A stretch of 64,000 nt of DNA, taken from contig JACIXB010000011.1 in NCBI GenBank assembly GCA_014360685.1, positions 409,803 to 473,802 of the forward strand, written 5' to 3'. Position 1 is the stretch's first letter. Each line of letters starts with the position of its first letter. Shown here in pieces: positions 490 through 53,286 of the stretch. This DNA is from Actinomycetota bacterium. Lineage in GTDB: Bacteria > Actinomycetota > Geothermincolia > Geothermincolales > RBG-13-55-18. A program made the translations under genes and the position numbers. The notes beneath the pieces were generated by a model, which worked only from the letters and a program-made list of their open reading frames with translations, had not been told where the DNA came from and searched no databases.

Positions 490-1344
490 TCAAAGGGATC
501 GGCCCATGATCATGCTTCCCACGGTCAGGAGGAGGAAGCCGGGGAGGATCATGAAGACCAAGGGAAATAGGACCATGACGGAGATGCGCGCGGCTCGGGC
601 CCGGTTCCTCTCCCTCCGCGCGGAGCGCATCTCGGTTGCCAGTTGGGAGAGGAGTTCCGAGACCGGGGCCCCGCTCTCCTCGGCCCGCTTGATGGTACGG
701 GCGAAACGCCGCAGTTCCCGGCAGGGATGGTCGGCGACCCGCCTTACGGCCTCCGCCACGCCCTCTCCCAGACGAAGACCCTCCGCTATTTCCTCCAGTA
801 CGCGCCGGGTATGGAGGTGTTGGGCGGCGGAAACCGAGTGCTGGAGGGACCGCTGCAGGCTCTCCCCCGCGAAACAGAGAACGGCCACCAGGTCGACCAC
901 CTCGGGGAGGTCCGCGCTCAATCCCTCCAGGGCGCGGAGACGCCTGCGCTTGAGCCAGAATGTCGGTATCCTGCCACCCGCGATGAAGGCCAGGGGGAGG
1001 ACGGGCAACGCCTGGATTCCCAGGGGGAGCAGGGCGAGGCATAAGAGCGCTCCACAGAGCCTCTTAACTCCCGAGTAGCGGGGAGCGGTCCAATCCAGAC
1101 CCGCCTCGCGGATGAGGTCCTCCTCTTCGCTCCGCGGCGGACGGGAGAAGGGCTTTCCCAATATATCGATTACATTCCATAATTTGGAAAAGAAAGAACC
1201 ACGCGCATTCTTCGCCGGCCGGGATATGCCCTCGTATCCCATGAGCTTCAAGGCCGTCCGGCGACGGCCGCCTTTTAAGGCCAGGGAACGCATGACGCAA
1301 AAAACGGCGAAGGCGACCAGCAGGGAGATGAGCGCTTCCACCAC
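490..1344 (-). CDS. tadC: Type II secretion system F domain protein, TadC-like
   Basis: LPEVVDLVAVLCFAGESLQRSL...; position next to TadB and TadA; C-terminal TM segment. Confidence 0.8.
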   Translation of the reverse strand: MVEALISLLVAFAVFCVMRSLALKGGRRRTALKLMGYEGISRPAKNARGSFFSKLWNVIDILGKPFSRPPRSEEEDLIREAGLDWTAPRYSGVKRLCGALLCLALLPLGIQALPVLPLAFIAGGRIPTFWLKRRRLRALEGLSADLPEVVDLVAVLCFAGESLQRSLQHSVSAAQHLHTRRVLEEIAEGLRLGEGVAEAVRRVADHPCRELRRFARTIKRAEESGAPVSELLSQLATEMRSARRERNRARAARISVMVLFPLVFMILPGFLLLTVGSMIMGRSL

Positions 1345-2199
1345 CTACACCCCCTCGGTCATCCGTCTTATCAACAGAAAGGCGGCTCCGTTCAGGGACA
1401 GGGCCACCAGCGCCATCAGATTGCCCGCCGGCGTGGCGAGTATGGGCTTGAGGGAGGAAGGGTTCAAAGCGGCCTGGATGGAGAGAAAGGCCAGGGGAAG
1501 GGCGGAGACCAGGTAACCCGATGCCCTGCTCTGGGAGGTCAACATCCTCAATTCGCGCCGCGCCTCCAGTGCCTCGTAAACCCTATCCCGCAACCTTTCC
1601 AGCACTCGCGGAAGGTCGCCGCCCCGGCCGTGTAGGAGCCGGAGGACGGTAAGGGTATGGCGCATGGAAGGCGAACCGGTTCGCTCGGAAGCATGGAGCA
1701 GGGACTCCTCCAGCCCGCTTCCGGCGCGTATCTCCCGGACCAACTCTTCCAGCTCCGCTCCAAGTTCCCGCCCCACGTCCTCGAGGCAGACCTGGAGGGA
1801 TTGTTGCAGGGAAAGGCCCGAACGAAGCGATTGGGTAAGGGAATCTATGAATTCCAGAACCTGTTCTTCTTTTCTCATCTCCTCTCTTCTCCCGCGGTAT
1901 TCCCTGAGGAATCTGGTGGCGGCCGGCAGGACGAGGGGCGGGAGGAGGCAGAGAAGCGGGTTTCGCGTGAGCGCCAGGATCAAAACGCAGGCGGCGATGA
2001 AGAGGAAGCGCTTTCTCCTTTCCGCCGAGAAAAATCTGCGCGCGGCTCCACGCAGTCCTTCCCAGCCGTCCCTTTCCGGGGCCGGTTTTCCGCTTCCTGT
2101 CTTCAGCAGGGAGGAGGCACGGCCCTGCCTCTCCGCGACCAGGTGGGTCCGGAAGAGGAATGCGCTGCATGCCAGGAGAAGAACAGAGGCCCACATCAT
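1345..2199 (-). CDS. tadB: Type II secretion system F domain protein, TadB-like
   Basis: EQVLEFIDSLTQSLRSGLSLQQSLQ... T2SSF pattern, TM segments, adjacent to TadC/TadA. Confidence 0.8.
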   Translation of the reverse strand: MMWASVLLLACSAFLFRTHLVAERQGRASSLLKTGSGKPAPERDGWEGLRGAARRFFSAERRKRFLFIAACVLILALTRNPLLCLLPPLVLPAATRFLREYRGRREEMRKEEQVLEFIDSLTQSLRSGLSLQQSLQVCLEDVGRELGAELEELVREIRAGSGLEESLLHASERTGSPSMRHTLTVLRLLHGRGGDLPRVLERLRDRVYEALEARRELRMLTSQSRASGYLVSALPLAFLSIQAALNPSSLKPILATPAGNLMALVALSLNGAAFLLIRRMTEGV

Positions 2200-3455
2200 G
2201 AGGAATGCGGTCCGGTTGCGACCGCTCTCACCCCCTCCCGCCTACGCTCCGCCGGACTTGGGGATGCGGAAACGGCGAGATGGCGTATCCCGCACGGGGC
2301 CTCTGGTCCGGACGACCCCTCCAATCTCAGGCTCCGCAGCTTGCCTCCCCCTCCTTCCTCCCTATCCATGACCGCTATCTCCCCCACCCGTCTATGGCCC
2401 TCGGAGTCCCTTTCCATGTGCACCACCACGTCAACCGCCCGCTCTATCTGGCGGCGTAGCGCTTCGGCCGGAAGCCCCACCCCGGCGGTGAGGGCCATGG
2501 TTTCCAGGCGGGAAAGGGCGTCCAGGGGGGAATTGGCGTGGACGGTGGTCATGGAACCCCGGTGACCGGTGTTCAGGGCCTGCAGCAGATCCAACGCCTC
2601 CGGCCCCCGCACCTCGCCGATGATGATGCGGTCGGGCCGCATGCGGAGGACGTTGCGCAGGAGGTCGCGGAGGGTCACCTCTCCTTTTCCCTCCAGGTTG
2701 GGGGGACGGGTTTCCAGGGGGACGACGTGAGGCTGTTGCAGCCTTAGTTCCGCCGCGTCCTCCAGGGTTATGATGCGTTCCCCGGGATGAATGTGGGCGG
2801 ATAGGGCATTGAGGAGGGTCGTCTTTCCGCTTCCGGCACCCCCGGATATCACAACGTTCATCCTGTCCCTGACCGCGGAAGCCAGGAAGGAGGCTTCGGC
2901 GGCTTTCATGGTCCCCCCTTCCACCAGTTCCTGGAGAGTGAAGGGCAGGGATCGGAACTTGCGGATGGTGATCACCGGGCCCAGGAGGGAAAGCGGGGGG
3001 AGGATGACGTTGACCCGCGAGCCGTCGGGAAGTCGCGCGTCCACGTAAGGGGAGGCCTCGTCGACGTGCAGGCCGAGGGGACCGATGATGCGGTCGATGA
3101 GGCGGTAGATCTCCTCCTCCCCCTGGAGGACCACCCGGCTGGGCGAAAGGACGCCGTTCCTCTCTACGAAGATTCGGTGGGGGCCGTTGACCATGATCTC
3201 CGTCACCTCCTCGTCGCGCATCAGGTTTTCCAGGGGACCCAGGCCCAGTATGTCGTCCAGCAATTTGTGCAGGATTTCCTGCATCTCGGCGGGATCCAGG
3301 ATGAATCCCTCCTCCCATATGACCTCCCGGGCCAGGCGGAGCAGGTCCCTCCGCTTGCGGGCGGCGTCGGCTTCGAGATCAAGGACCTTATCCCACCCGG
3401 AAAGCCGGTCCCGTATTCTTTCCCTGATGAGGGGGTAGAGGTCGTTTTCTTCCAC
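2196..3455 (-). CDS. tadA: CpaF/TadA-type secretion ATPase
   Basis: Walker [47 protein letters not shown] start at 3455 behind GGAGGTGA is more likely than the 3737 ORF start, which overlaps the next gene. Confidence 0.85.
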
Positions 3456-3459
3456 CGGT

Positions 3460-4722
3460 TCACCTCCTGGAGAGGCTGGGGGAATGGGATGCCCTCTTTT
3501 TGCCGAGGCCGGGCAGGATCTTGCGACGTGATATCTCCGGCGAGAGAGGTTCTCCCTCCCCGTGGAGGAACGCCGGCAGGCGTACCACCGCTTTGCCCAA
3601 GGGAGATTCGGGCCTGGGGAGCTTGGCCAGTTCCGCGAAGTCCAGCCCGGAACGGGGATCATCCGGAATGGTGAACACGTTCTCGATACCCACCGCGTTA
3701 GATATCTGGTGGGGTTGAAGGGTTGAGTTGCCGCCATAGCGGTTGATGATGAGGCGCAGTGCCCGGGGATCCGCTCCGAAGCCGCGCAGGGATCGGCTGA
3801 TGGCGCGGGCGCTGCGCGCGGACACGGCGTCGGCCAGGGTGACCACCGCCAGTACGCGGCAGGGTAGAAGGGCGGGGAGGAATTCCTCCGCCAGGTGGCC
3901 GGGGAGGTCCACCACCACCGTGTCGAAGAGGAAGTTGAGGTTGCGGAATAAGGAAGCCGGGATGCCGCTGTTACGCGATCCCCCCTTCCGGCTTGGCTGG
4001 CCGAAGGGGAGAAGGTAAAAGCCCACCGGGTGGCGGTAGATGGAAACCCGGGCCATCTCCCAGGATATGTCCTCCGCCATGGGCAGGAGATCTACGAGAT
4101 TTTTTCCCGTTCCCTCCGGCTTGAAGATGGAGAGCTGGGAGCGCTCCCGGTCCAGGTCCACGAGGAGCACCCTTTTTTCGCTTGCCGCGTAAGCGGCGGC
4201 CGTGGTGGCGGCCAGCAAAGTGTTCCCGGCTCCACCCTTCCCGCCTACCATGACCACCAGCCCCGGTCCCGAAAGGCGTTTCCCTTCCCCCTTGAAGGTT
4301 ACCCGGGGCGTCGTTCCGCGGAATAATTCCACCCTTTCCTTTATCTGCCGGTAGAGGAGTTCCGATTCCGTTCTCGCCGGGTGCACGGTGCCGCAGAAGG
4401 CGAAGGGTCCGCGGAAAAGTTGAGCCAGGTCGGCGCTTTCCAATGTTGGATCGCCTCCCTCCACCAGGAGGGTGGGGATCAGGCCCGACCGCTGTCCGTT
4501 GAACAGGCTTGTCCACTCCTCGTCCATCTCCAGGAGCATCCTGGCGGAGATGAGAAGCATATCCGGGTGGAAACGATGGAGCAGCCTCCCCAGGTCCTCC
4601 GGCGTGCGTGCCACCCCGCACGCTTCCAATAAGGGGTGCCCATCCACCATTTCCGCCAGCCTGGAGGCCTCGCCGCTGGGAAGAGCCAGGCCCACCGAAA
4701 GTATATCCACTTTTCCTCCCAA
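3460..4722 (-). CDS. CpaE/TadZ-like MinD-family ATPase
   Basis: VVMVGGKGGAGNTLLAATTAAAYAASEKRVLLVDLDRERSQ deviant Walker A; first gene of the Tad operon. Confidence 0.75.
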   Translation of the reverse strand: MGGKVDILSVGLALPSGEASRLAEMVDGHPLLEACGVARTPEDLGRLLHRFHPDMLLISARMLLEMDEEWTSLFNGQRSGLIPTLLVEGGDPTLESADLAQLFRGPFAFCGTVHPARTESELLYRQIKERVELFRGTTPRVTFKGEGKRLSGPGLVVMVGGKGGAGNTLLAATTAAAYAASEKRVLLVDLDRERSQLSIFKPEGTGKNLVDLLPMAEDISWEMARVSIYRHPVGFYLLPFGQPSRKGGSRNSGIPASLFRNLNFLFDTVVVDLPGHLAEEFLPALLPCRVLAVVTLADAVSARSARAISRSLRGFGADPRALRLIINRYGGNSTLQPHQISNAVGIENVFTIPDDPRSGLDFAELAKLPRPESPLGKAVVRLPAFLHGEGEPLSPEISRRKILPGLGKKRASHSPSLSRR

Positions 4723-5027
4723 TGTTATATATATTATAAAACTATAACATGTTGATCATAATGTCAATATGCCGGCCTCCGCGGGCTGACACCGGAAAGC
4801 GGGCGCAAGGGATGCGGTAGAAAAAAGCCGTTTCCATGCTCGAGTCCGGTTTGGGGATTCGCGGGACGGGTTCCCGTTTGATGGGCTGCCGGGCTTGTGT
4901 TAAAAAGGGCGTGAACGTGAAAAAGGGGCGCGAACAAAAGCGCCGGCGCACCAAGCCCTTGCCGGGCCGGGGCGGGCTGGGAGGGGTACGGGTATGGGCG
5001 GCCGGTCGTGGGGATGAAAGGGAGAGT

Positions 5028-6194
5028 ATGGCTCCCGGCAAGAGGGCGAAGGCACTACGGAGAAGTTTGTTACCCGGGGCACTGCTTTTCCTGGCCCTCG
5101 GGGCGTTGGTATCCTCGGCCTTTTACGTCCGGCGACCAAGGGGAGCGATCTCCCTCGCGGGGCCGGGAATGGCCATGCCCGGCGGGGGCCCCGAACACGT
5201 TTCCTACCTGCCCGCCGCCCCATGCGGAAACCTGCGTGAGCTGTGGAGCACCCGGCTGGAAGCGGAGATTCCAGGTCCTTGCGCGGTGGCGGCGGACAGG
5301 GTCTTCGCGGCCTGCCGCAACGGGTTTCTCTATTGCCTGGACCTGGACGGCGGCCGGCCCCTGTGGCTCTTCGACGTCAAGGGGGAGATAACTTCCATGC
5401 CCGCCGTTTTCGAGGGCGGCGTATTGGTATCCACCCTTGACGGCCGCGTGGTATGCGTGGACGGAAAAGGGGGGTTGCTTTGGGAGGTCGAGGTCGGAGG
5501 GTCGGTGCTCTCCTCGCCCGTGCCCTCGGGAAAGAGGGTCTATTTCACCTCCCTTGACGGTTTCCTGTATTGCGTGGACGCGGCGCGTGGCTCGGAGAAA
5601 TGGCGCTTCCAGGCCGATGCTCCCCTCGAGGTCTCCCCCTGTATTTACGAGGGGCAGGTCTTATGCGCTTCCTACGAGGGGACCCTTTTCGCGCTGGATG
5701 CCGGAAGCGGCCGGTTGCTCTGGTCCACACATTTACAGGGCCTCCCGGTTTGCTTCCCGGTGGCCGATGAGGGGCGCGTCTTCCAGGTAACCGACGCGGA
5801 GTTGCGCTGCGCGGATTCCCAGAGCGGCAAGACCCTTTGGTCCTTGGCCTTGGGCGGAAAGGTCCTCTCCAACCCGGCGGTGCGCGGCAACCAGCTGGTC
5901 ATCCTTATGGGCGGGCCGGGAGAGGGTTCCTTCCTGCTTTCCCTGGATGCCAGGACCGGCGACCGGTTATGGCAAGTGGCCCTGGGGATGGAAACCGGCA
6001 AGGCGAACATCCTGGCCACCAACAACGACGTCTACTTGGCCACGAGCGACCGCGTGCTGGCCTTGGAATGGGAGACCGGAGCGCCTACCCTGGGGTATGA
6101 CGCGGAGGGTGCGCTCCCTTCAACCCTTACCGTCACCCAGGACCGTCTGTTGGTGGGAACCGAGAGGCGCAAGGTTTTTTGCCTGGGTGAGTAG
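5028..6194 (+). CDS. PQQ-binding-like beta-propeller repeat protein (BamB-like), membrane anchored
   Basis: Repeated YCLDLDGGRPLW / VVCVDGKGGLLWE / YCVDAARGSEKWRF / FALDAGSGRLLW motifs; N-terminal TM; internal ATG at 5028 preferred over the 4836 ORF start. Confidence 0.8.
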   Translation: MAPGKRAKALRRSLLPGALLFLALGALVSSAFYVRRPRGAISLAGPGMAMPGGGPEHVSYLPAAPCGNLRELWSTRLEAEIPGPCAVAADRVFAACRNGFLYCLDLDGGRPLWLFDVKGEITSMPAVFEGGVLVSTLDGRVVCVDGKGGLLWEVEVGGSVLSSPVPSGKRVYFTSLDGFLYCVDAARGSEKWRFQADAPLEVSPCIYEGQVLCASYEGTLFALDAGSGRLLWSTHLQGLPVCFPVADEGRVFQVTDAELRCADSQSGKTLWSLALGGKVLSNPAVRGNQLVILMGGPGEGSFLLSLDARTGDRLWQVALGMETGKANILATNNDVYLATSDRVLALEWETGAPTLGYDAEGALPSTLTVTQDRLLVGTERRKVFCLGE

Positions 6195-6469
6195 AAGAAA
6201 AGGGGAGAAAACAAGAGGAAGCTCTGGCATGGTGTGGTTTACACCTCATACCGATGTCTTGCTCCTGCGATATGAGTGTAAAACCTGCATAAGGGGTGCC
6301 GGTTCTTGGGGACCATGAAGCGGTGGCGGGAGAAGAGTATAGATTTAGGTGTCGAGAAAACGGTACAGATGTTCATGCAACCGAACGATATATTAAAGAA
6401 TGGAAATGAGGTCGGTTGTTGAATCGGAAACATGGCCGGTCATGGAATGGCGGGGATCAAGAAAGGGTG

Positions 6470-7204
6470 ATGGAATTGAAGCGGTTTATAAACGGCAAGG
6501 GCGGTCGCCGGCTGGCGGTGGCCTTCGTTTCCCTGGCCCTCCTTTCCCTGCTGGCCGCCTTCCCGGGTTGCGGCAGGGGTGAGCCCACCCTGGAGGAGAT
6601 ATGGGAAAGATCAGTGGAGGCCCAGGACAACATCACGTCTTTGCACATGGAGATAGCCATATTCTACCAGAATACCAAGTTCGGGAGCGGCCAGATCCAG
6701 ACCTATACCGTGGATGTGAGCGGGAACAACGTCCACCTGCAGAACTCCATTTTCGGGCATACCTTCAGCGAGGTGATCGTGGTCGGCGACAAGCAGTACA
6801 GCCGGGCCATGGGAGAAAAGGAGTGGCGGGAGCAGCCGGTCAGCATCACGGCGCAATCGGCGACGGAGCAGGTGCGCGGATTCGCCGATCTTCCCGCGGT
6901 TGCCTCGACCAAGGAGTCCAAGGGCCTGGAGAAAGTGGGCGGCAAGGATTGTTACCATCTTTATTTCGGGCTGGCTCCCGGCGAGATATCCAAGGTCTTC
7001 TCCAGTGTCCCGGTCTCCAGTCTTTCCGCGGCCGCCGGGGCCGACATCGACGTTTGGGTGGAAAAGGAAACCAATTACCGCATCAAGTACGAGGCGCTGA
7101 TCCGCAACGTCCTCATCGAGGAGAAAATCGGATACGGCGACGTACGCATCGTGACCACTATTACGGAGATAAACCAACCCATAAGCATCAGCCCTCCTTC
7201 TTAA
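6470..7204 (+). CDS. Secreted lipoprotein, DUF6612/LppX-like
   Basis: Lipobox LLAAFPGCGRG; LEEIWERSVEAQDNITSLHMEI... Confidence 0.65.
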   Translation: MELKRFINGKGGRRLAVAFVSLALLSLLAAFPGCGRGEPTLEEIWERSVEAQDNITSLHMEIAIFYQNTKFGSGQIQTYTVDVSGNNVHLQNSIFGHTFSEVIVVGDKQYSRAMGEKEWREQPVSITAQSATEQVRGFADLPAVASTKESKGLEKVGGKDCYHLYFGLAPGEISKVFSSVPVSSLSAAAGADIDVWVEKETNYRIKYEALIRNVLIEEKIGYGDVRIVTTITEINQPISISPPS

Positions 7205-8012: not shown

Positions 8013-11000
8013 ATGCTCATCAACAGGACTCTACAGAAGGTGATCAACTTCCTGGTCATAGTATCCATGGTCGCCTTGCTGGCGGTTGGAGGGCTGATGG
8101 CTTTACCCTCACGCAGCCCGTTCGGGCCGCTGATGGGCAAGGTATTCAATTCACGGAGCAACCTGGTGGGGATGCTCAACACCCTCGACCCCAGGGAAGT
8201 GGCCAGGGCCGTAAACGAGAACCCCGACCTGGTGGCACAACTCCTTCCCCTCCTGGAAGCGGATATCCTGGCCGCCGCCGTAAACGCGAACCCCGAATTC
8301 GTGAGCAGTTTGGTTGCCGGACTCGACCCCAAGGTAGCGGCGGAGATCGTGAATCATAACGGCGAGTTCGTCAGCCTGGTCATCCCCTATCTCGACCCTC
8401 GGGTGATTGCAGACGTGGTGAACAACAACTACAGCTTCCTGGTCGAGGTGGCCCAATACCTTGACCCATTCTCGGTGGCCTACATCATCAACAACAACCA
8501 GGAGCTCGCCATCCAATTGGTGGGAGCCCTCGATCCCGGGGTGATCGCCCAGGTGGTCAACAACAACGCTGACTTCATAACCCGGGTGGCGGGGTTATTG
8601 AACGCGGAAGTTCTGGCCAGGGCCATCAACGAGAATCCCTCCCTGGCCGTCGATTTGGTGAGCATGCTCGACCCCCGGGTAGCAGCCATGGTGATCAACG
8701 CCAACGGAAGGTTCCTGGCTTCGGTGATGTCCTTGTTGAATCCAAGAGTGCTGGCCGGCGCGGTAAATTCCAATGGTTCCTTCCTGGTGCAGCTGCTGGG
8801 ATATCTGGACCCCGAAGTCATCGCTGACGCCCTTAATCATAACGAGCAGCTGGTTAACGACGTGGTTGCCCTTCTGGAACCCGACTTCATAGCCTCCATA
8901 ATCAACAACCAGTCCTTCGTCACGCGCTTGATCGGCTATCTCAATCCCGCTTCCATCGCGGGTTCTATAAATGCCAACGGCGGTTTCGTAAGCGCTCTAT
9001 TGGGATACCTGGACCCCGGGATGGTCGCCGGGGCAGTTTCGGACAACGCCGCATGGCTTGAAGCGCTCATCGGTCACCTGGACGGCGCCCAACTGGGACA
9101 CATACTGGACGGTAATGCGGCCTTCATGTCCGATTTCGTGGGAGCTCTCTCACCCTCGACCATCGCCGAAGTGATAAACGGCAACGCGCCCTGGGCGGTG
9201 AGCTTGATATCCCAGCTGGATACGGGGGTCATCGCCGGGATAGCCAACGACCCGGCCACGGTGGCCTTCATAAACGCCCTGCTCCCGCAGCTCGACGCCG
9301 CCACTCTGGCGGGGATCCTGAACAACAACGGGGGCTGGGTGGGAGACCTGGTCTCCAACCTCTCCACGGGGATGGTGGTGGATCTCCTGAACAGCCTGGA
9401 TCCCGCCTGGACGGCCCGGCTCATGACCGACCTGAACAACCCCACCAGCCTGGGGGTCATCGCCGGGATAGCCAACGACCCGGCCACGGTGGCCTTTTTG
9501 AACAGCCTCCTCCCCCAGCTGGACGCCTCCGCCCTGGCGGGGATCGTCAACGGCAACGGATCCTGGGTGGCCGACCTCCTCTCCGGGATCACCCCGGACA
9601 CGGTGAACACCCTGATCTCCGACCTTACCCCCTGGATCACGGGGACCCTGCTCCCCGGACTGGACGTCTCGGCCATCGCCGGGATAGCCAACGACCCGGC
9701 CACCATCGCCTTTTTGAACAGCCTCCTCCCCCAGCTGGACGCCTCGGGCGTGGCCTCCGTCGTCAACGCCAACTGGGACTGGATGGGGGACGTGGTCTCG
9801 GGCATCGCCCCCTCCACGGTGAACAGCCTGCTCACCGACATCGGGCCCTGGATGCTCGGGGTGCTCATGCCCAACCTGGATGAGCACATCATAGCCACCC
9901 TCATGAACCATCCCAACACCATAGCCTTCATCAACCGGCTGCTTCCCAACCTGGATCCCGCATCTCTAGCGGACATATTGAATAACAATGGAGCATGGGT
10001 GGGCGAGCTCATCTCCAACCTCTCCACCACCATGGTCGTGGACGTGGTGAACAACCTGGATCCCGCCTGGACGGCCCAGCTCTTCACCGACTTGAACAAC
10101 GCCACCACCCTCACCGTGCTCGGGAACATCGCCAACTCCCCGGAGTTCACCGCCTTCGTGGACGCCCTCATCGGCTACCTGGACCCGACCATCCTGGCCG
10201 GCATCCTCAACTCCAACGGGGACTTCGTGGGCCAGCTCATCTCCAACCTCTCCACCACCATGGTCGTGGACGTGGTGAACAACCTGGATCCCGCCTGGTG
10301 GGCACAGTTGATGAACGACCTGAGGACGGGAGCCCTCGTCTCTATCGCCGCGCTGGCCAACGACCCGGCGACCATCGCCTTCCTAAACGCCCTGCTCCCG
10401 CAGCTCGACGCGGCCAACGTGGCCTCCATCGTCAACAACAACGTAAGCTGGCTTAACCAGGTGGTCACCAACGTCACCCCGGCAACGGTGAACAGCATGC
10501 TCAGCGGTCTCTCCGGATGGATCACCAACACCTTGATTCCCGGGCTGGACGCCTCGACCATAGCTGGAATAGCGAACGCCGTCAGCACTAGGGATTTCCT
10601 GAACACGCTGCTCCCGCAGATCGACGAGGCAAATCTGGCTTACGTGGCGAACAACAACGGGGCCTGGCTGGCCGATCTTATCTCCAATCTGGACGCTTCC
10701 GTCGTCGCCGATGCCCTGAACGCCAACGAGGCCTTCGTAACCGCCCTGGTGCAGAACCTGGACACTACCGTTCTGGCCAACGTCATCAACGCCAGCGAGG
10801 CTTTCCTAACCCAGCTCCTGGGCAAGCTCAATCCCACCGTCCTGGCCAACGCCATCAATGCCAACGGCACCTTCCTCACCAACCTGCTGGGGGCCCTCAA
10901 TCCCAGCGTGGTGGCCGGCGCCCTCAACGCCAACCAGACCTTCGTCACCAACCTCATAAGCGCCATCAACCCCCAGGTGCTGGCCAACGCCCTCAATGCC

Positions 11001-11798
11001 AACGGGACCTTCATGCAGAACCTGCTAGGTTATCTCGACCCGGCGGTCATAGCCGGTGCCGTGAACGCCAACCAGACCTTCGTCACCGGTATGGTCACAA
11101 ACCTCTCGCCCACGGTGCTGGCCAACGCCATCAACGCCAACGAGGCCTTCATGAGCAGCCTGATAACCGGGTTGGATACAACCGTACTGGCCAACGTGCT
11201 CAACTCCAACTCGGTGAGGAACTGGTTGACCACCCTGGTCTCCAAGCTCAACGCCACCCAGGTGGCCTATATCCTTAACAACAACCAGGCCTTCCTCACC
11301 AACCTGATCGGGGCCCTCAACCCCTCGGTGTTGGCCGCGGCCATCAACTCCAACGGCTCCTTCCTCAACAACCTCATCGCCAACCTGAACGCCTCGGTGG
11401 TGGCCGGGGCCATCAACACCAACCAGACCTTCCTGACCAACCTCATCGCCAACCTGAACCCCAGCGTGCTGGCGGGAGCGGTGAACGCCAACGGGACCTT
11501 CCTGCAGAATCTGCTGGGGGCGCTGGACACCAACGTCATTGCGGGAGCGCTGACTTCAACGAACGGTCTGAGCTTCCTGACCAACCTGATCGTCAACCTC
11601 TCCGGGGCTCGCGCTCAAGCCCTGGTCAACGCCCTCAACGCCACCGGCGTGGATTACCACAACGACGATGCGCCTATCACCTTCTTCGACCAGTTCGTCC
11701 TGATGCTCCACTCCAACTTGAACATCCTGGGACTCGGTCATCATATCGAAGGAAAAATCGAAGGTTTCATCTATGATGCCAACGGAGGAGACTGGTAA
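8013..11798 (+). CDS. Giant tandem-repeat protein with N-terminal signal anchor; about 48 units of ~23 aa, consensus L(D/N)PxVIAxxVNxNxxFLxxLIGx
   Basis: Single 1261-aa ORF; hydrophobic N-terminus VINFLVIVSMVALLAVGGLMAL; repeat units read directly from the translation. Confidence 0.9.
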   Translation: MLINRTLQKVINFLVIVSMVALLAVGGLMALPSRSPFGPLMGKVFNSRSNLVGMLNTLDPREVARAVNENPDLVAQLLPLLEADILAAAVNANPEFVSSLVAGLDPKVAAEIVNHNGEFVSLVIPYLDPRVIADVVNNNYSFLVEVAQYLDPFSVAYIINNNQELAIQLVGALDPGVIAQVVNNNADFITRVAGLLNAEVLARAINENPSLAVDLVSMLDPRVAAMVINANGRFLASVMSLLNPRVLAGAVNSNGSFLVQLLGYLDPEVIADALNHNEQLVNDVVALLEPDFIASIINNQSFVTRLIGYLNPASIAGSINANGGFVSALLGYLDPGMVAGAVSDNAAWLEALIGHLDGAQLGHILDGNAAFMSDFVGALSPSTIAEVINGNAPWAVSLISQLDTGVIAGIANDPATVAFINALLPQLDAATLAGILNNNGGWVGDLVSNLSTGMVVDLLNSLDPAWTARLMTDLNNPTSLGVIAGIANDPATVAFLNSLLPQLDASALAGIVNGNGSWVADLLSGITPDTVNTLISDLTPWITGTLLPGLDVSAIAGIANDPATIAFLNSLLPQLDASGVASVVNANWDWMGDVVSGIAPSTVNSLLTDIGPWMLGVLMPNLDEHIIATLMNHPNTIAFINRLLPNLDPASLADILNNNGAWVGELISNLSTTMVVDVVNNLDPAWTAQLFTDLNNATTLTVLGNIANSPEFTAFVDALIGYLDPTILAGILNSNGDFVGQLISNLSTTMVVDVVNNLDPAWWAQLMNDLRTGALVSIAALANDPATIAFLNALLPQLDAANVASIVNNNVSWLNQVVTNVTPATVNSMLSGLSGWITNTLIPGLDASTIAGIANAVSTRDFLNTLLPQIDEANLAYVANNNGAWLADLISNLDASVVADALNANEAFVTALVQNLDTTVLANVINASEAFLTQLLGKLNPTVLANAINANGTFLTNLLGALNPSVVAGALNANQTFVTNLISAINPQVLANALNANGTFMQNLLGYLDPAVIAGAVNANQTFVTGMVTNLSPTVLANAINANEAFMSSLITGLDTTVLANVLNSNSVRNWLTTLVSKLNATQVAYILNNNQAFLTNLIGALNPSVLAAAINSNGSFLNNLIANLNASVVAGAINTNQTFLTNLIANLNPSVLAGAVNANGTFLQNLLGALDTNVIAGALTSTNGLSFLTNLIVNLSGARAQALVNALNATGVDYHNDDAPITFFDQFVLMLHSNLNILGLGHHIEGKIEGFIYDANGGDW
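8184..11607 (+). repeat. Coding tandem repeat array, base period ~69 bp with a ~70-aa higher-order period in the middle
   Basis: LDP...VNxN... units tile continuously; recurrent IAGIANDPAT(V/I)AF(L/I)N(S/A)LLPQ sub-units. Confidence 0.85.
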
Positions 11799-11953: not shown

Positions 11954-12817
11954 ATGAAAGCTGGTAAAAACGATGAATACTGCGTGAGAGGCGGCGAAAT
12001 ACATAAATCAGCGCTTGCATTCTCGCTGGCCCTCCTCTTTGCCGTTATGGCTCTCGTGCCCGGTTGCGGTGGCGATTCCATCGCTGCCCTACTGGAGCGG
12101 TCGGATGATTCCATCCAGGAATTTGAAAAAGCGATAACGCAGGCTGACCATTGCCTTCACGCGCTCTTGGGATTCAATTTCGAGAACGCCTCCTTCCTGG
12201 ACGAAGCGCTGTCCGCCGTAAGATCAGGGATGGACTCCCTCCAACCAGCTGGACATGCCGTGGATGTGTTGTCATCCACAGATTACCGGGGCAAACTCGC
12301 CCATCTGGGTGAACTGGTGAGTGGCTTTGTTGTCGACGCCAGGTCAGCCCTTGAAGAACTGTCACTTGTTTACCATGATTTGGAATCCATCCTTATGGCC
12401 ATTGAGCCACTCCTGCTAAAGGAGGCGGTCATTACCCAAATGGAAGTGCCCCAGGATCAGGCTGAATGGAGAGGCAGGTTACTGGATCTCAGACAGGCAC
12501 TCGAAACAACCCTGCAAGCACTTGCCGCGTTAACCGTCGGTCCGGCAATGACTGATTACCACTCTTATTTCACGGATGTTTCGGTCGCCCTCAAAAAGGT
12601 GGTCGACCAGATCATCAGCCGTCTACCGCTTGTCGATCTTGAGGCGGATATAGGGATAAGCGCGGACTTCTCTCGCATTCTGGAGATGCTCGATTCCTAT
12701 CCCATGGTGGTTGAAAGGTTGAAGGAAAGTATCTCGATATTCTCACTGGACCCGGTCATAAGCGAGATAGAGGTGGAGATAAACGACTTGTACATGGAAT
12801 CAAACTCGAGCCGGTAA
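11954..12817 (+). CDS. Secreted lipoprotein, helical, unknown function
   Basis: Signal peptide and lipobox ALVPGCGG; RBS-like GGAGG upstream. Confidence 0.65.
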   Translation: MKAGKNDEYCVRGGEIHKSALAFSLALLFAVMALVPGCGGDSIAALLERSDDSIQEFEKAITQADHCLHALLGFNFENASFLDEALSAVRSGMDSLQPAGHAVDVLSSTDYRGKLAHLGELVSGFVVDARSALEELSLVYHDLESILMAIEPLLLKEAVITQMEVPQDQAEWRGRLLDLRQALETTLQALAALTVGPAMTDYHSYFTDVSVALKKVVDQIISRLPLVDLEADIGISADFSRILEMLDSYPMVVERLKESISIFSLDPVISEIEVEINDLYMESNSSR

Positions 12818-13142
12818 AAAAAGATCTGTCAAGTACCGGGCAAGTTACAGGCGCCTTGTGAAACCCCGTGGTCAGCTACCGACCTTGGGCATTGTTTGGA
12901 GAATTCATATGCCTGATCGGCCTGGGCGGAGGTTTTCAACCCGGAAGGTAGGCCCCGCGGTGCTGACAAATATAAACCTCTCCAAGCGGCCGCGGGGTAA
13001 GGGGACGCACGATGCGGGGTTTATGATATGTTTATGGATGGAATAAGGCGGCGAAGCGGAGCTGCAGGTAGATGTGGATTTGGGCTTCCTGTGTATCAAG
13101 TACAGCGTTGGACGGCATTTTGCCTGTATGGAGGTGTAGAGT

Positions 13143-14792
13143 TTGAACTGTCCCCGCCATCCCAGTAAGAGAGCGATCGCCAACTGCCAGGAGTGCGGTA
13201 CCTGGTTCTGCATAGAATGCGTGCGAGAGACCGACCAGACCATCCTGTGCCACGAATGCCACCGGAGACGGATGGACGAAGTGGCCATGGAATTAACGCC
13301 GCGGGAGGAGGAAGCGGAAGGCTTCGCCGCCAGGCATTCTCCAGCAGCGTTGGACCGGGATGCCGGGAAAATCACACTGCGGTCTTCTTTCCCGGTTCCC
13401 GGGGAACCCGGGGAGCACGGGAAGCCTCCGGCGGGTCGGGGGGAATTCGAAGAGGAAACCCTTTCCAGGAGGCCGGCAAAGCGCGGATGGTTCTGGAAGA
13501 GGGATAAAAGGGTGAGGGAAGTCCGGGAAGCCGGTGGGCGTACCCCGGGGAAAGCGCCGGAGAAAACCTTGTCCGGGAGGGCTGCCGCGCCCGTGGGTGG
13601 GGAGGAGGCCGAAGAGGAGCCGGATTTCCTCGCCATGGGACCGGATGAGGATTTCAGCGAGCTGTCCAGCGCCGCGGAGAGGAGGAGGTTGCGCTTCTTC
13701 CCCGGGAGGAGGCGCCCCGTGGCGAAAGAGACGGCTGAGGGGGCCCCGCCCGGCGAGGAGGCGCGGCGGTTGGGGACGACCCACGGGGTGGAGGAGGGAC
13801 GGGGAGAGACCAAGGGGCCGGAAAAACGGAAGCTCGCCGAAAGGCCCTACTCGGCGGAGAGCGGGGAAAGAGCCGCCCTCCCCGGGAGGGAGCGGGCGGA
13901 GAGAAAGCCGGCGGATAAGATATCGGCACCCCCCACCCCGGGGGCTGCCGCGGGGGACGAGTTACTCGACGACGTGGTGTCCCGGCTGCTGGTTACGGAA
14001 AGAGGAGGGGGACCAGAGGGGCGGGAAAAGGGGAAGGGTTCGGAGGCCCGCACCCCATCCGGGGATAGCGTCGAGGAAGTCCTGACCACCCTACTGCGGC
14101 CGGAAACCGAAGTGACCGCCGGGCCCCGGGCGGCGCGGGAAAGTGCGGCCCCCCGCGAAGGAAGGGCGGTAGCGGTTGCGGATTCGACCGCCGCAGCGGA
14201 GGCGGCTGAACCGACCATACGGCGGGAGGAACGCCGCAGTGTGGTGAGGGAAAGGGAGAAACGGTGGTCATTCCTGGCCCAGCCCCGCTCCTCGGAACAC
14301 ACGGAGATCGCCGCCAGCTGGTGGGTGGCGGCCTTGTTCGTACTCCTCATGGTGCTTCTGGGCGCCGTACTCTGGGCCGTGCCCAATGCCTACCTGGTCC
14401 CCAGGGACACGGAATACGGCATCCACGCCGTGGCCATCGGTATCCTCCTCGGCCTGATCTTCTGGTGGAAGGCGGGAAGGAAACACGGCACCAAGCTGGC
14501 CGTGCAGGCCGCCCTTACCACCTTTTTCGCCCTCTTTTCAGGGGAGTTCCTCCACTGGTTCCTCGTCATCACCAAGAATGCCGCCCTGCGCACCATCTTT
14601 TTCGACCTGGTGTCCTTCCGCTTCATCTGGGAGCATGGTGCGGAAGTCATGCGCCATACCTTGGAGGCCATGTTCCCGGGAGCCTTCGTGTGGATAATGG
14701 TCATGCCCACCCTGCTGGCCTTCATCATCGGCTTCGGCATGCCTCCCATCCCCGAGATCTTCTTCCAGTTCGGGCGGGCGGTGCGCGAGTGA
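13143..14792 (+). CDS. B-box-type zinc-finger protein with long charged disordered region and C-terminal TM helices
   Basis: CPRHPSKRAIANCQECGTWFCIECVRETDQTILCHECH; ~300 aa of E/R/G/P-rich sequence; several hydrophobic helices at the C-terminus. Confidence 0.75.
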   Translation: MNCPRHPSKRAIANCQECGTWFCIECVRETDQTILCHECHRRRMDEVAMELTPREEEAEGFAARHSPAALDRDAGKITLRSSFPVPGEPGEHGKPPAGRGEFEEETLSRRPAKRGWFWKRDKRVREVREAGGRTPGKAPEKTLSGRAAAPVGGEEAEEEPDFLAMGPDEDFSELSSAAERRRLRFFPGRRRPVAKETAEGAPPGEEARRLGTTHGVEEGRGETKGPEKRKLAERPYSAESGERAALPGRERAERKPADKISAPPTPGAAAGDELLDDVVSRLLVTERGGGPEGREKGKGSEARTPSGDSVEEVLTTLLRPETEVTAGPRAARESAAPREGRAVAVADSTAAAEAAEPTIRREERRSVVREREKRWSFLAQPRSSEHTEIAASWWVAALFVLLMVLLGAVLWAVPNAYLVPRDTEYGIHAVAIGILLGLIFWWKAGRKHGTKLAVQAALTTFFALFSGEFLHWFLVITKNAALRTIFFDLVSFRFIWEHGAEVMRHTLEAMFPGAFVWIMVMPTLLAFIIGFGMPPIPEIFFQFGRAVRE

Positions 14793-14889
14793 TGTCAGGC
14801 CGGGCGGGCGAGGGCTTCGACCTGGGGCGCCGAGCTCGCGTGGCGGAAGGCGCACGGATGATATGTTTGCCGGCCTACGGACGGTGAGG

Positions 14890-15246
14890 ATGAGGGGGAT
14901 CTGGGGCGTGGCTTGGGAGACGGAATTCTTGGAAGGGGGCACCAAGGCCCTGGTACGCCTGGATGGCGTGGTGGACTCCACCAACGTGGAGGAGTTCTTC
15001 GCCCTCATCAACTCCATATTCAAGCAGGGCGTGAAACGCGTGGTCCTGGACATGGAGAACACCAGCTACCTCTCCAGCGGCGGGCTCTCGGTCATCGTCG
15101 ACGCCCATAAGAAGGCGGAAAAGGAAGGGGGGAAGCTGGTCATCGCCCGCGCCTCGGAGATGGTGGCTGATCTCTTCAGGGTGGTCCAGGTGGAGAGGAT
15201 TATACCTTTCTTCGATAACCTCCAGGAGGCATTGGAGGCGCTCTGA
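14890..15246 (+). CDS. STAS domain protein, anti-sigma factor antagonist-like
   Basis: RLDGVVDSTNVEEFFALINSIFKQGVKRVVLDMENTSYLSSGGLSVIV. Confidence 0.85.
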   Translation: MRGIWGVAWETEFLEGGTKALVRLDGVVDSTNVEEFFALINSIFKQGVKRVVLDMENTSYLSSGGLSVIVDAHKKAEKEGGKLVIARASEMVADLFRVVQVERIIPFFDNLQEALEAL

Positions 15247-15616: not shown

Positions 15617-17293
15617 TCAGACGGCCACCACCCGCATGACCTCCTCGATGGAAGTTATTCCCATCTTCACCTTGATGAAGCCGTCGTCGCGCATGGTGAT
15701 CAGGCCCTCTTCCTTGGCCTGCTTCATGATGGTGGTGGCCGAGGCCTCCTTCACGGTGAGCTTCTTTATCTCCTCGCTCATGGGCATGACCTCGTAGAGA
15801 CCGATGCGTCCCTTGTACCCCGTTCCCCCGCACTTGGCGCACCCGTTCTCGTTGGCCTTGTACAGGATGAGTTCATCCATGTCCTCGTAAGGGAAATTGA
15901 GCGCCTTGAGAACCTCGATGTCCGGTTCGTAGGGCACCTTGCAGTTGGGGCAGAGCTTGCGCACCAGCCTCTGGGCCATCACGCAGTTGATGGCCGAGGA
16001 CACCAGGAAGGCCTCCACCCCCATCTCGATGAGGCGCGGCAGGGCGCTGGGGGCGTCGTTGGTGTGCAGGGTGGAGAGCACCAGGTGCCCGGTGAGTGCG
16101 GCCTCGATGGCCGTCTTGGCCGTCTCCCGGTCGCGGATCTCGCCCACCATGAGGATGTCCGGAGAGGTGCGCAGGATGTTGCGCAAGGCGTTGGCGAAAG
16201 TCAGGCCGGCTTTGGGGTTAACCTGCACCTGGTTGATGCCCGCCAGCCGGTACTCCACCGGGTCCTCCACGGTGGTGATGTTCTTGTGTTCCGTGTTGAG
16301 CACGTTCAGGGTGGCATATAGGGAGGTGGACTTCCCGCTTCCGGTGGGGCCGGTCACCAGGAGGGCTCCGTGGGGCTTGGTGAAGGCCTGGCGGTATTTT
16401 TCCAGGGCCTCCGGCAGGAATCCCAGGTCCTCCAGCCGCAGGAGGATACTCGACTTGTCCAGGATGCGCATGACCACTTTCTCACCGTAGACGGTGGGAA
16501 GCACGGCGACCCGGAAGTCGATGGATTTCCCGTTGGTCACCAGCCCGAAGTGGCCGTCCTGGGGAATCCTGCGCTCGGCGATGTTCAGGTCGGAGATGAT
16601 CTTGATGCGCGACACGATCCCCTCGTGGACGTTCTTGGGCAGACGCTTGATCTCCTGGCACACGCCGTCGATGCGGTAGCGGATCAAGACCTCGTTCTCC
16701 CGGGGATCGATGTGGATGTCGCTGGCCCCCCGGTTGATGGCCTCGGTGATCATGGTGGTGGTAAACCTTACCAGGGGAGTGTCGTCCACCACGCCGGTGA
16801 TGCCCTCCGCCTCCTCCTCCTCCTCTTTGCCCTGTAGGGCCTCCTCCACGACATCCGTGTCCAGGTGGTAGTAACGCTGGATGGCGTTGAGGATGTCTTC
16901 CCGCGCGCTGACCACCGGTTTGACCTCGTAGCCGGTACTCAGCCGGATGTCGTCCAGGGCGTAGATATTGGTGGGATCGGCCATGGCCACCACCAGCTTC
17001 CCGTCCTCGAAGTCTATGGGTATGCAACTGTAGCGCCTGGCCATGCTCTCGTCTATGGAGGTGGTGGCCTGGATGTTTATCTTGTACTCCAGGAGGTCCA
17101 CGTACTCCAGCCCGAGCTCGCGGGCGATGAGCTCGGCCAACTGGTTTTCCTTCACCATCCCCAACTCGAGGAGGACGCGGCCCAGGCTGGCCCCGGTCTC
17201 CTTCTGGCGCTCCAGGGCCTGGGCCAGCTGCTTCTCGGTGACCACGTTGTTCTTCAGTAGAAGCTGGGAGAGCCGGTCCGTCGCGGATGGCAT
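15617..17293 (-). CDS. pilB: GspE/PilB-type ATPase
   Basis: GPTGSGKSTSLYATL, ILMVGEIRDRETAKTAIEAALTGHLVLSTLHTNDA, zinc-binding CPNC...CAKC. Confidence 0.9.
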   Translation of the reverse strand: MPSATDRLSQLLLKNNVVTEKQLAQALERQKETGASLGRVLLELGMVKENQLAELIARELGLEYVDLLEYKINIQATTSIDESMARRYSCIPIDFEDGKLVVAMADPTNIYALDDIRLSTGYEVKPVVSAREDILNAIQRYYHLDTDVVEEALQGKEEEEEAEGITGVVDDTPLVRFTTTMITEAINRGASDIHIDPRENEVLIRYRIDGVCQEIKRLPKNVHEGIVSRIKIISDLNIAERRIPQDGHFGLVTNGKSIDFRVAVLPTVYGEKVVMRILDKSSILLRLEDLGFLPEALEKYRQAFTKPHGALLVTGPTGSGKSTSLYATLNVLNTEHKNITTVEDPVEYRLAGINQVQVNPKAGLTFANALRNILRTSPDILMVGEIRDRETAKTAIEAALTGHLVLSTLHTNDAPSALPRLIEMGVEAFLVSSAINCVMAQRLVRKLCPNCKVPYEPDIEVLKALNFPYEDMDELILYKANENGCAKCGGTGYKGRIGLYEVMPMSEEIKKLTVKEASATTIMKQAKEEGLITMRDDGFIKVKMGITSIEEVMRVVAV

Positions 17294-53210: not shown

Positions 53211-53286
53211 GCCCCTGTAGCTCAGTGGACAGAGCAAGGGATTCCTAATCCCTGTGTCGGGAGTTCGATTCTCCCCAGGGGCTCCA
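53211..53286 (+). tRNA. tRNA-Arg (anticodon CCT), CCA encoded
   Basis: GCCCCTG/CAGGGGC acceptor stem, anticodon loop TTCCTAA, T loop TTCGATT, all stems pair. Confidence 0.95.

Follow-up and report, generated by a model that had tools for sequence, protein, structure and literature searches.

We found that P0001, a protein encoded in the 64,000-nucleotide stretch of DNA analyzed here (the window), is built almost entirely from tandem 23-residue units and belongs to a family that occurs throughout one uncultured bacterial class, Candidatus Geothermincolia. This helical repeat family is apparently undescribed, and its two-helix unit is very short (23 aa). The best explanation of our data as a whole, which we consider quite possible and just short of probable, is that P0001 is an anchored extracytoplasmic solenoid acting as an envelope scaffold for a Tad/type IV filament machinery, with related solenoids serving in families f4-f7 as the outer arm of an anti-sigma factor. 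The fusion of a solenoid to a candidate sigma-regulating domain offers a direct route to asking what the solenoid senses. Because its consensus unit is so clear, the repeat could also serve as a scaffold in protein design.

A membrane-anchored protein built from 23-residue units

The P0001 reading frame begins with ATG, is preceded by a purine-rich stretch and has 84% GC at third codon positions. The N-terminus reads MLINRTLQKVINFLVIVSMVALLAVGGLMALPSRSP..., and conservation of the M1 start across the family supports the start codon. One hydrophobic helix follows, with none of comparable strength in P0001 beyond residues ~10-31, and directly after it residues ~32-43 carry a family signature in which P32, P36, G42 and K43 are conserved. 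The protein is strongly acidic, with 12% Asn and no Cys. An original prediction, made from the DNA letters, had called a secreted or anchored protein of 1261 residues, and both the exact frame and the single N-terminal helix agree with it. Coordinates are collected in Table 1.

Table 1. Features of the P0001 locus (positions in the window unless a locus is named)
Feature	Position	Strand	Basis or remark
Tad/Flp pilus genes TadC, TadB, CpaF/TadA, CpaE	490..4722	-	divergent from P0001 group
PQQ-type beta-propeller gene and 262-aa lipoprotein-like gene	4836..7204	+	conserved upstream neighbors
P0001 gene, 1261-aa signal-anchored, predicted alpha-solenoid protein	8013..11798	+	ORF call, orthologues and paralogues
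Single N-terminal transmembrane helix of P0001, residues ~10-31	8040..8105	+	hydrophobicity, family conservation
N-terminal block of P0001, regular 23-aa units, residues 58-402	8184..9218	+	
Middle block of P0001, 72/76-aa super-units, residues ~402-868	9216..10616	+	
C-terminal block of P0001, regular 23-aa units, residues 869-1190	10617..11580	+	AlphaFold2 two-helix pattern
C-terminal tail of P0001, NALNATGVDYHNDDAPITFFDQFVLMLHSNLNILGLGHHIEGKIEGFIYDANGGDW at its end	11568..11795	+	
287-aa lipoprotein-like gene, B-box-type zinc finger membrane protein, STAS protein	11954..15246	+	conserved downstream neighbors
PilB/GspE-type ATPase with MshEN domain	15617..17293	-	conserved neighbor
B-box-like protein genes	13143-14792; L036 2235-3899; L044 2147-3235; L062 9024-10100		

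Self-comparison of P0001 gave a signal at lag 23 (z = 22.7 against shuffles) with further peaks at 46, 69 and 92; lag 12, about half a unit, also stands out (z = 7.4 against shuffles). The 23-residue period, which had been predicted, spans residues ~58-1190. An HMM of the unit, refined iteratively on 50 family proteins (879 training units), locates 37 units in residues 58-1180, whereas shuffled copies average 0.13 and never exceed 2. The consensus is L-[DN]-P-x-V-[LIV]-A-x-A-[VIL]-N-x-N-[GP]-x-F-[LVI]-x-x-L-[LIV]-G-x; its best conserved positions are A7, N11, N13, L20, L1, F16 and P3. The ~48 units originally counted thus hold as hairpins by length (about 1130/23), whereas canonical units number 37. 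Similarly, the description of the protein as almost all repeats is accurate for residues ~58-1190, with the qualification that the middle (~402-868) is less regular and contains divergent units as well as super-units of 72 and 76 aa.

At the DNA level these super-units are direct repeats of 216/228 nt, with 61-79% identity among the window's copies and 95-100% among some of those in relatives. Such near-identical modules, together with a P0001 orthologue of 1532 aa in genome G006, indicate that recent duplication of modules alters the protein's length. In several genome bins the assembly breaks within the P0001-type gene. The C-terminal tail is conserved among P0001 orthologues, and its alternating hydrophobic pattern is loosely common to the paralogues.

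Predicted structure of the repeats

AlphaFold2 models were built from shallow alignments, of 4 sequences for residues 869-1261 and of 2 for residues 1-450. The mean pLDDT values of 63 and 62, respectively, correspond to moderate confidence; pLDDT is 73-86 in the best part and ~70-80 in the N-terminal block, and confidence is low for the first 44 and last ~50 residues of P0001. Each 23-aa unit is predicted to form two ~10-residue helices, joined by one and two residues. When the consensus is placed on the model, D2 and N13 appear as helix N-caps, P3 starts helix A, and G/P14 starts helix B. The unit can be read from the model as a 12-residue half-repeat followed by an 11-residue one, consistent with the lag-12 signal. 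The predicted secondary structure has paired helices stacked one way, as in an alpha-solenoid, in both modeled regions and at moderate confidence, in line with the regular solenoid of two short helices per unit that had been anticipated. An alpha-solenoid architecture is thus very probable for P0001, as judged from these models.

A Foldseek search of the PDB returned armadillo/HEAT-type and other helical repeat proteins with TM-scores of at most 0.36, which supports the kind of architecture and singles out no specific fold. The best matches are the stacked-helix armadillo/HEAT alpha-solenoids (for example the engineered protein 4rv1 and importin alpha). Armadillo and HEAT repeats contain a conserved Asn per repeat and have units of roughly 37-47 residues, longer than those of P0001, to which they show no sequence match. 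The prevalence of armadillo/HEAT-type structures among the Foldseek matches, the highly conserved Asn residues at unit positions 11 and 13 and the presence of an S8 subtilase beside a paralogue cluster in f1 and f3 (see below) would all be compatible with a superhelix that binds peptides or glycans in an armadillo-like groove, its ligand being pilin, peptidoglycan or the substrate of the neighboring subtilase. We consider such a groove unlikely, because the model shows Asn13 as a one-residue linker that also caps a helix, and puts Asn11 where helix 1 ends, positions that fit a structural ladder rather than a groove, and because the listed Foldseek matches do not exceed the TM-score given above.

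Relation to known repeat families

No family was matched consistently in Pfam, NCBIfam or PDB sequence searches, and LRR, HEAT, ARM, TPR, PPR, ankyrin, pentapeptide and TAL repeats are all absent from the Pfam matches of P0001 at E ≤ 1. Among the papers listed by literature searches, no title or abstract beginning described the solenoid family, and we regard it as undescribed in all likelihood. The original prediction had likewise recognized no LRR, HEAT, TPR, ARM or pentapeptide repeat and had proposed a possible new family, against which a strong match to a known profile would have counted; we can refine this proposal, as P0001 does not stand alone but has several paralogues in a family that spans the class.

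The sole Pfam match above its curated cut-off is MgtE_N (PF03448), at 42.3 bits versus 25.9. This score, a helix period of ~12 residues in common and weak matches to FliG PDB chains (E 0.18-0.92) could mean that P0001 is no founder of a new family and belongs, as a divergent member, to the MgtE_N/FliG superhelix family. The score is, however, a sum of weak repeat matches, and no single stretch passes alone. MgtE_N matches 6 of 19 family members at E ≤ 0.1 (best E 0.0016), fewer than XPC-binding; across the 19 N-terminal regions, Pfam reports XPC-binding in 10, Dimerisation in 6 and MgtE_N in 6, a ranking that we read as noise from helical repeats. An hhalign comparison of MgtE_N from these genomes with the solenoid family gave probabilities of 2.8% and 0.1%, and a PF03448 scan of 30 genomes had no studied solenoid locus among its matches at E ≤ 0.001. 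On the strength of the profile-profile values, the 6/19 count and the negative scan, we rejected homology to MgtE_N, and membership in that superhelix family is highly improbable. MgtE_N is instead an architectural analogue: it also stacks very short helices of ~12 residues, with Pro often near helix starts, and has periodicity lags of 24, 12 and 36 against 23 and 12 in P0001, but a common helix period is not proof of kinship. MgtE_N and FliG, whose middle domain (PF14841) we take to share the MgtE_N fold, differ from P0001 in being intracellular, ~100 aa long and charged, and FliG is likened here on the basis of that fold and the weak PDB matches. These short-helix superhelices are the nearest relatives in architecture and were missing from the families listed in the original prediction.

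TAL effector repeats show an L-x-P..V-A..N resemblance to the P0001 unit, which had already been called superficial. Their unit has 33-35 residues and binds DNA inside the host nucleus, and we rejected TAL-like DNA binding for P0001 because of the missing Pfam match and the predicted extracytoplasmic topology. Two further candidates were set aside as noise from repeat or general composition: the repeat-bearing effector XopAD from one Pseudomonas plasmid (26% identity, E 6e-4) and the beta-repeat protein Outer Surface Protein A (E 0.023).

Distribution of the family

For a census we used profile A3 and scored genomes as positive at E < 1e-10. Among Candidatus Geothermincolia, 31 of 32 genomes are positive, the negative one being 62% complete. 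In other Actinomycetota, 1 of 367 genomes has a partial match; this match (G046, 20.8 bits, profile positions 52-127) was not counted as a family member. All reasonably complete Geothermincolia genomes encode several solenoid paralogues, often beside pilus genes, and the proteins range from 300 to >1500 residues. Phyla beyond Actinomycetota were covered solely by a close-relative scan of one genome per species in 85,488 species, and this yielded four loci: two in Ca. Solincola tengchongensis and two in bins labeled Actinomycetota. Phage records had no match to the family.

Gene neighborhoods of P0001 and its paralogues

In the window, the P0001 group lies between pilus genes in the order Tad / PQQ - lipoprotein - P0001 - lipoprotein - B-box - STAS / PilB, and a prepilin peptidase gene is located just left of the Tad genes. 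This order is kept in several genomes of f1, the window's own family, wherever the contigs extend far enough. In both lineages, solenoid genes have as a neighbor a protein whose N-terminus is B-box/zinc-ribbon-like; the window and L036 copies were identified by Pfam, and those of L044 and L062 by BLAST to the window copy.

A second locus in f1 and f3 genomes carries tandem paralogues A-B-C behind an S8 subtilase, identified by Pfam in three of these loci. In f4-f7 the tandem paralogues are sig1-2-3, and sig1 has an extra ~100-aa N-terminal domain (A5) before the membrane helix. A5 is present in 10 genomes, all from f4-f7 and with one copy each, and is fused to the solenoid in eight, which are all those with an open frame long enough to tell. 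Directly beside the sig1 gene, these same eight genomes (G018, G019, G020, G021, G023, G024, G028 and G031) have their best match to the BldN-type sigma family TIGR02952, the matches scoring below the family cut-off. Adjacency is not readable in G029 and G030, where the sigma match and A5 are on different contigs, and in G022 and G025 the cluster meets the contig end in sig1, so that neither A5 nor sigma can be read. In G015 (f2), three short solenoids of ~450-480 aa (L058 3061-8012) lie behind a more distant ECF sigma gene, and no N-terminal domain was detected. A tree resolves clean clades for A, B, C, sig1, sig2, sig3 and P0001; a separate clade for each gene position indicates that the positions are old and distinct.

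An adjacent ECF sigma gene, an N-terminal domain and one membrane helix together give sig1 of f4-f7 the layout of an anti-sigma factor. Judged from sequence, this first paralogue is probably an anti-sigma factor with the solenoid outside. It resembles RsbN-type anti-sigma/BldN pairs, in which the sigma gene adjoins the gene of a single-span protein with a small cytoplasmic N-terminal domain, but differs from them in that its outside part is a ~700-aa solenoid and that searches of Pfam, NCBIfam and PDB linked A5 to no known anti-sigma family. The BldN/RsbN-like arrangement, with its sigma match below cut-off, is seen at the f4-f7 paralogues and not at P0001.

The f4 and f7 sigma-solenoid clusters, which are separate from P0001, adjoin Tad genes in L036, L043, L059 and L065. 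That both lineages have solenoid genes next to Tad genes, in two separate groups, speaks for a role with the Tad/type IV filament machine. There are exceptions to this link: in L044 and L060 a non-Tad gene lies upstream of the sigma gene, and the f1 S8-A-B-C cluster is not beside Tad. A functional link to the filament is a tentative suggestion drawn from gene neighborhood, which does not prove function.

A possible envelope scaffold

The position of A5 before the membrane helix, next to a sigma gene, supports a topology with the N-terminus inside and hence the repeats outside, as do the acidity and lack of Cys. In our model P0001 would have its N-terminus inside, one membrane helix and then ~49 hairpins of two ~10-residue helices, which would form a long rod, possibly rigid or superhelical, rising from the membrane and closed by a C-terminal, probably beta-strand, tail. 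The most likely role of P0001, in our view, would be that of a scaffold or spacer in the envelope, which would position, guide or guard the Tad/type IV filament machinery through the cell wall. In f4-f7 the solenoid would form the external portion of a probable anti-sigma factor that reports envelope or pilus state to the ECF sigma factor, the rod also releasing or holding the latter. We put this scaffold/sensor mechanism forward with considerable reserve.

Alternatively, membrane-anchored rods could coat the cell as a surface adhesin, S-layer-like lattice or filament, with the tail used for assembly or contact. Long acidic extracytoplasmic repeats, the presence of several paralogues in each genome and length variation through duplicated modules are common in surface proteins. 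We nevertheless find a coat rather unlikely: Pfam and NCBIfam detect no LPXTG or other cell-wall sorting signal, adhesion domain or S-layer domain in P0001, whose C-terminus is not hydrophobic, and both a solenoid fused to a cytoplasmic domain next to a sigma gene and the three distinct paralogues conserved per cluster fit a specific machine or sensor better. The original prediction had named an adhesin, filament or scaffold; the first two are possible but nothing favors them, context points to Tad, and the gene context of sister lineages adds sigma/anti-sigma signaling. An extension of the scaffold reading, that these class-specific giant solenoids are a wall-spanning Tad device, wired in some lineages to an ECF sigma factor so as to sense pilus/wall state mechanically or by length, is speculative and improbable in this full form.

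Additional observations at solenoid loci

Solenoid copies of ~300-350 aa (L046 4800-5708, L069 4881-5792, L072 4736-5740, L073 4347-5390 and L074 786-1808) adjoin proteins matched by the S8 query. These short copies may be without an anchor, as their profile match starts past the membrane helix. The S8-query matches beside some small copies and in L044 rest on a shared DUF5719 region, and we rejected an S8 protease identity for the L046 and L044 neighbors, which are TIG/DUF5719 proteins without a protease domain.

In G020, ORFs of >2000 aa flank the sigma-solenoid genes (L061 3001-9411 and L060 4249-12000), the one in L061 containing Ig-like and TIG domains. A histidine kinase follows the A-B-C cluster (L035 469-3414, L056 2-3485, L057 116-4897). 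L035 and L057 also encode a response regulator there, and L056 and L057 an ABC transporter ATPase; identities in this region come from Pfam for L035 and the L056 ABC-2 pair and from BLAST for the rest. Elsewhere in the window's own genome, a short solenoid-like match lies in a 142-aa frame (G000:C3:341555-341863, minus strand), perhaps a remnant. The only tRNA gene in the window is a tRNA-Arg (cct) at 53211-53286.
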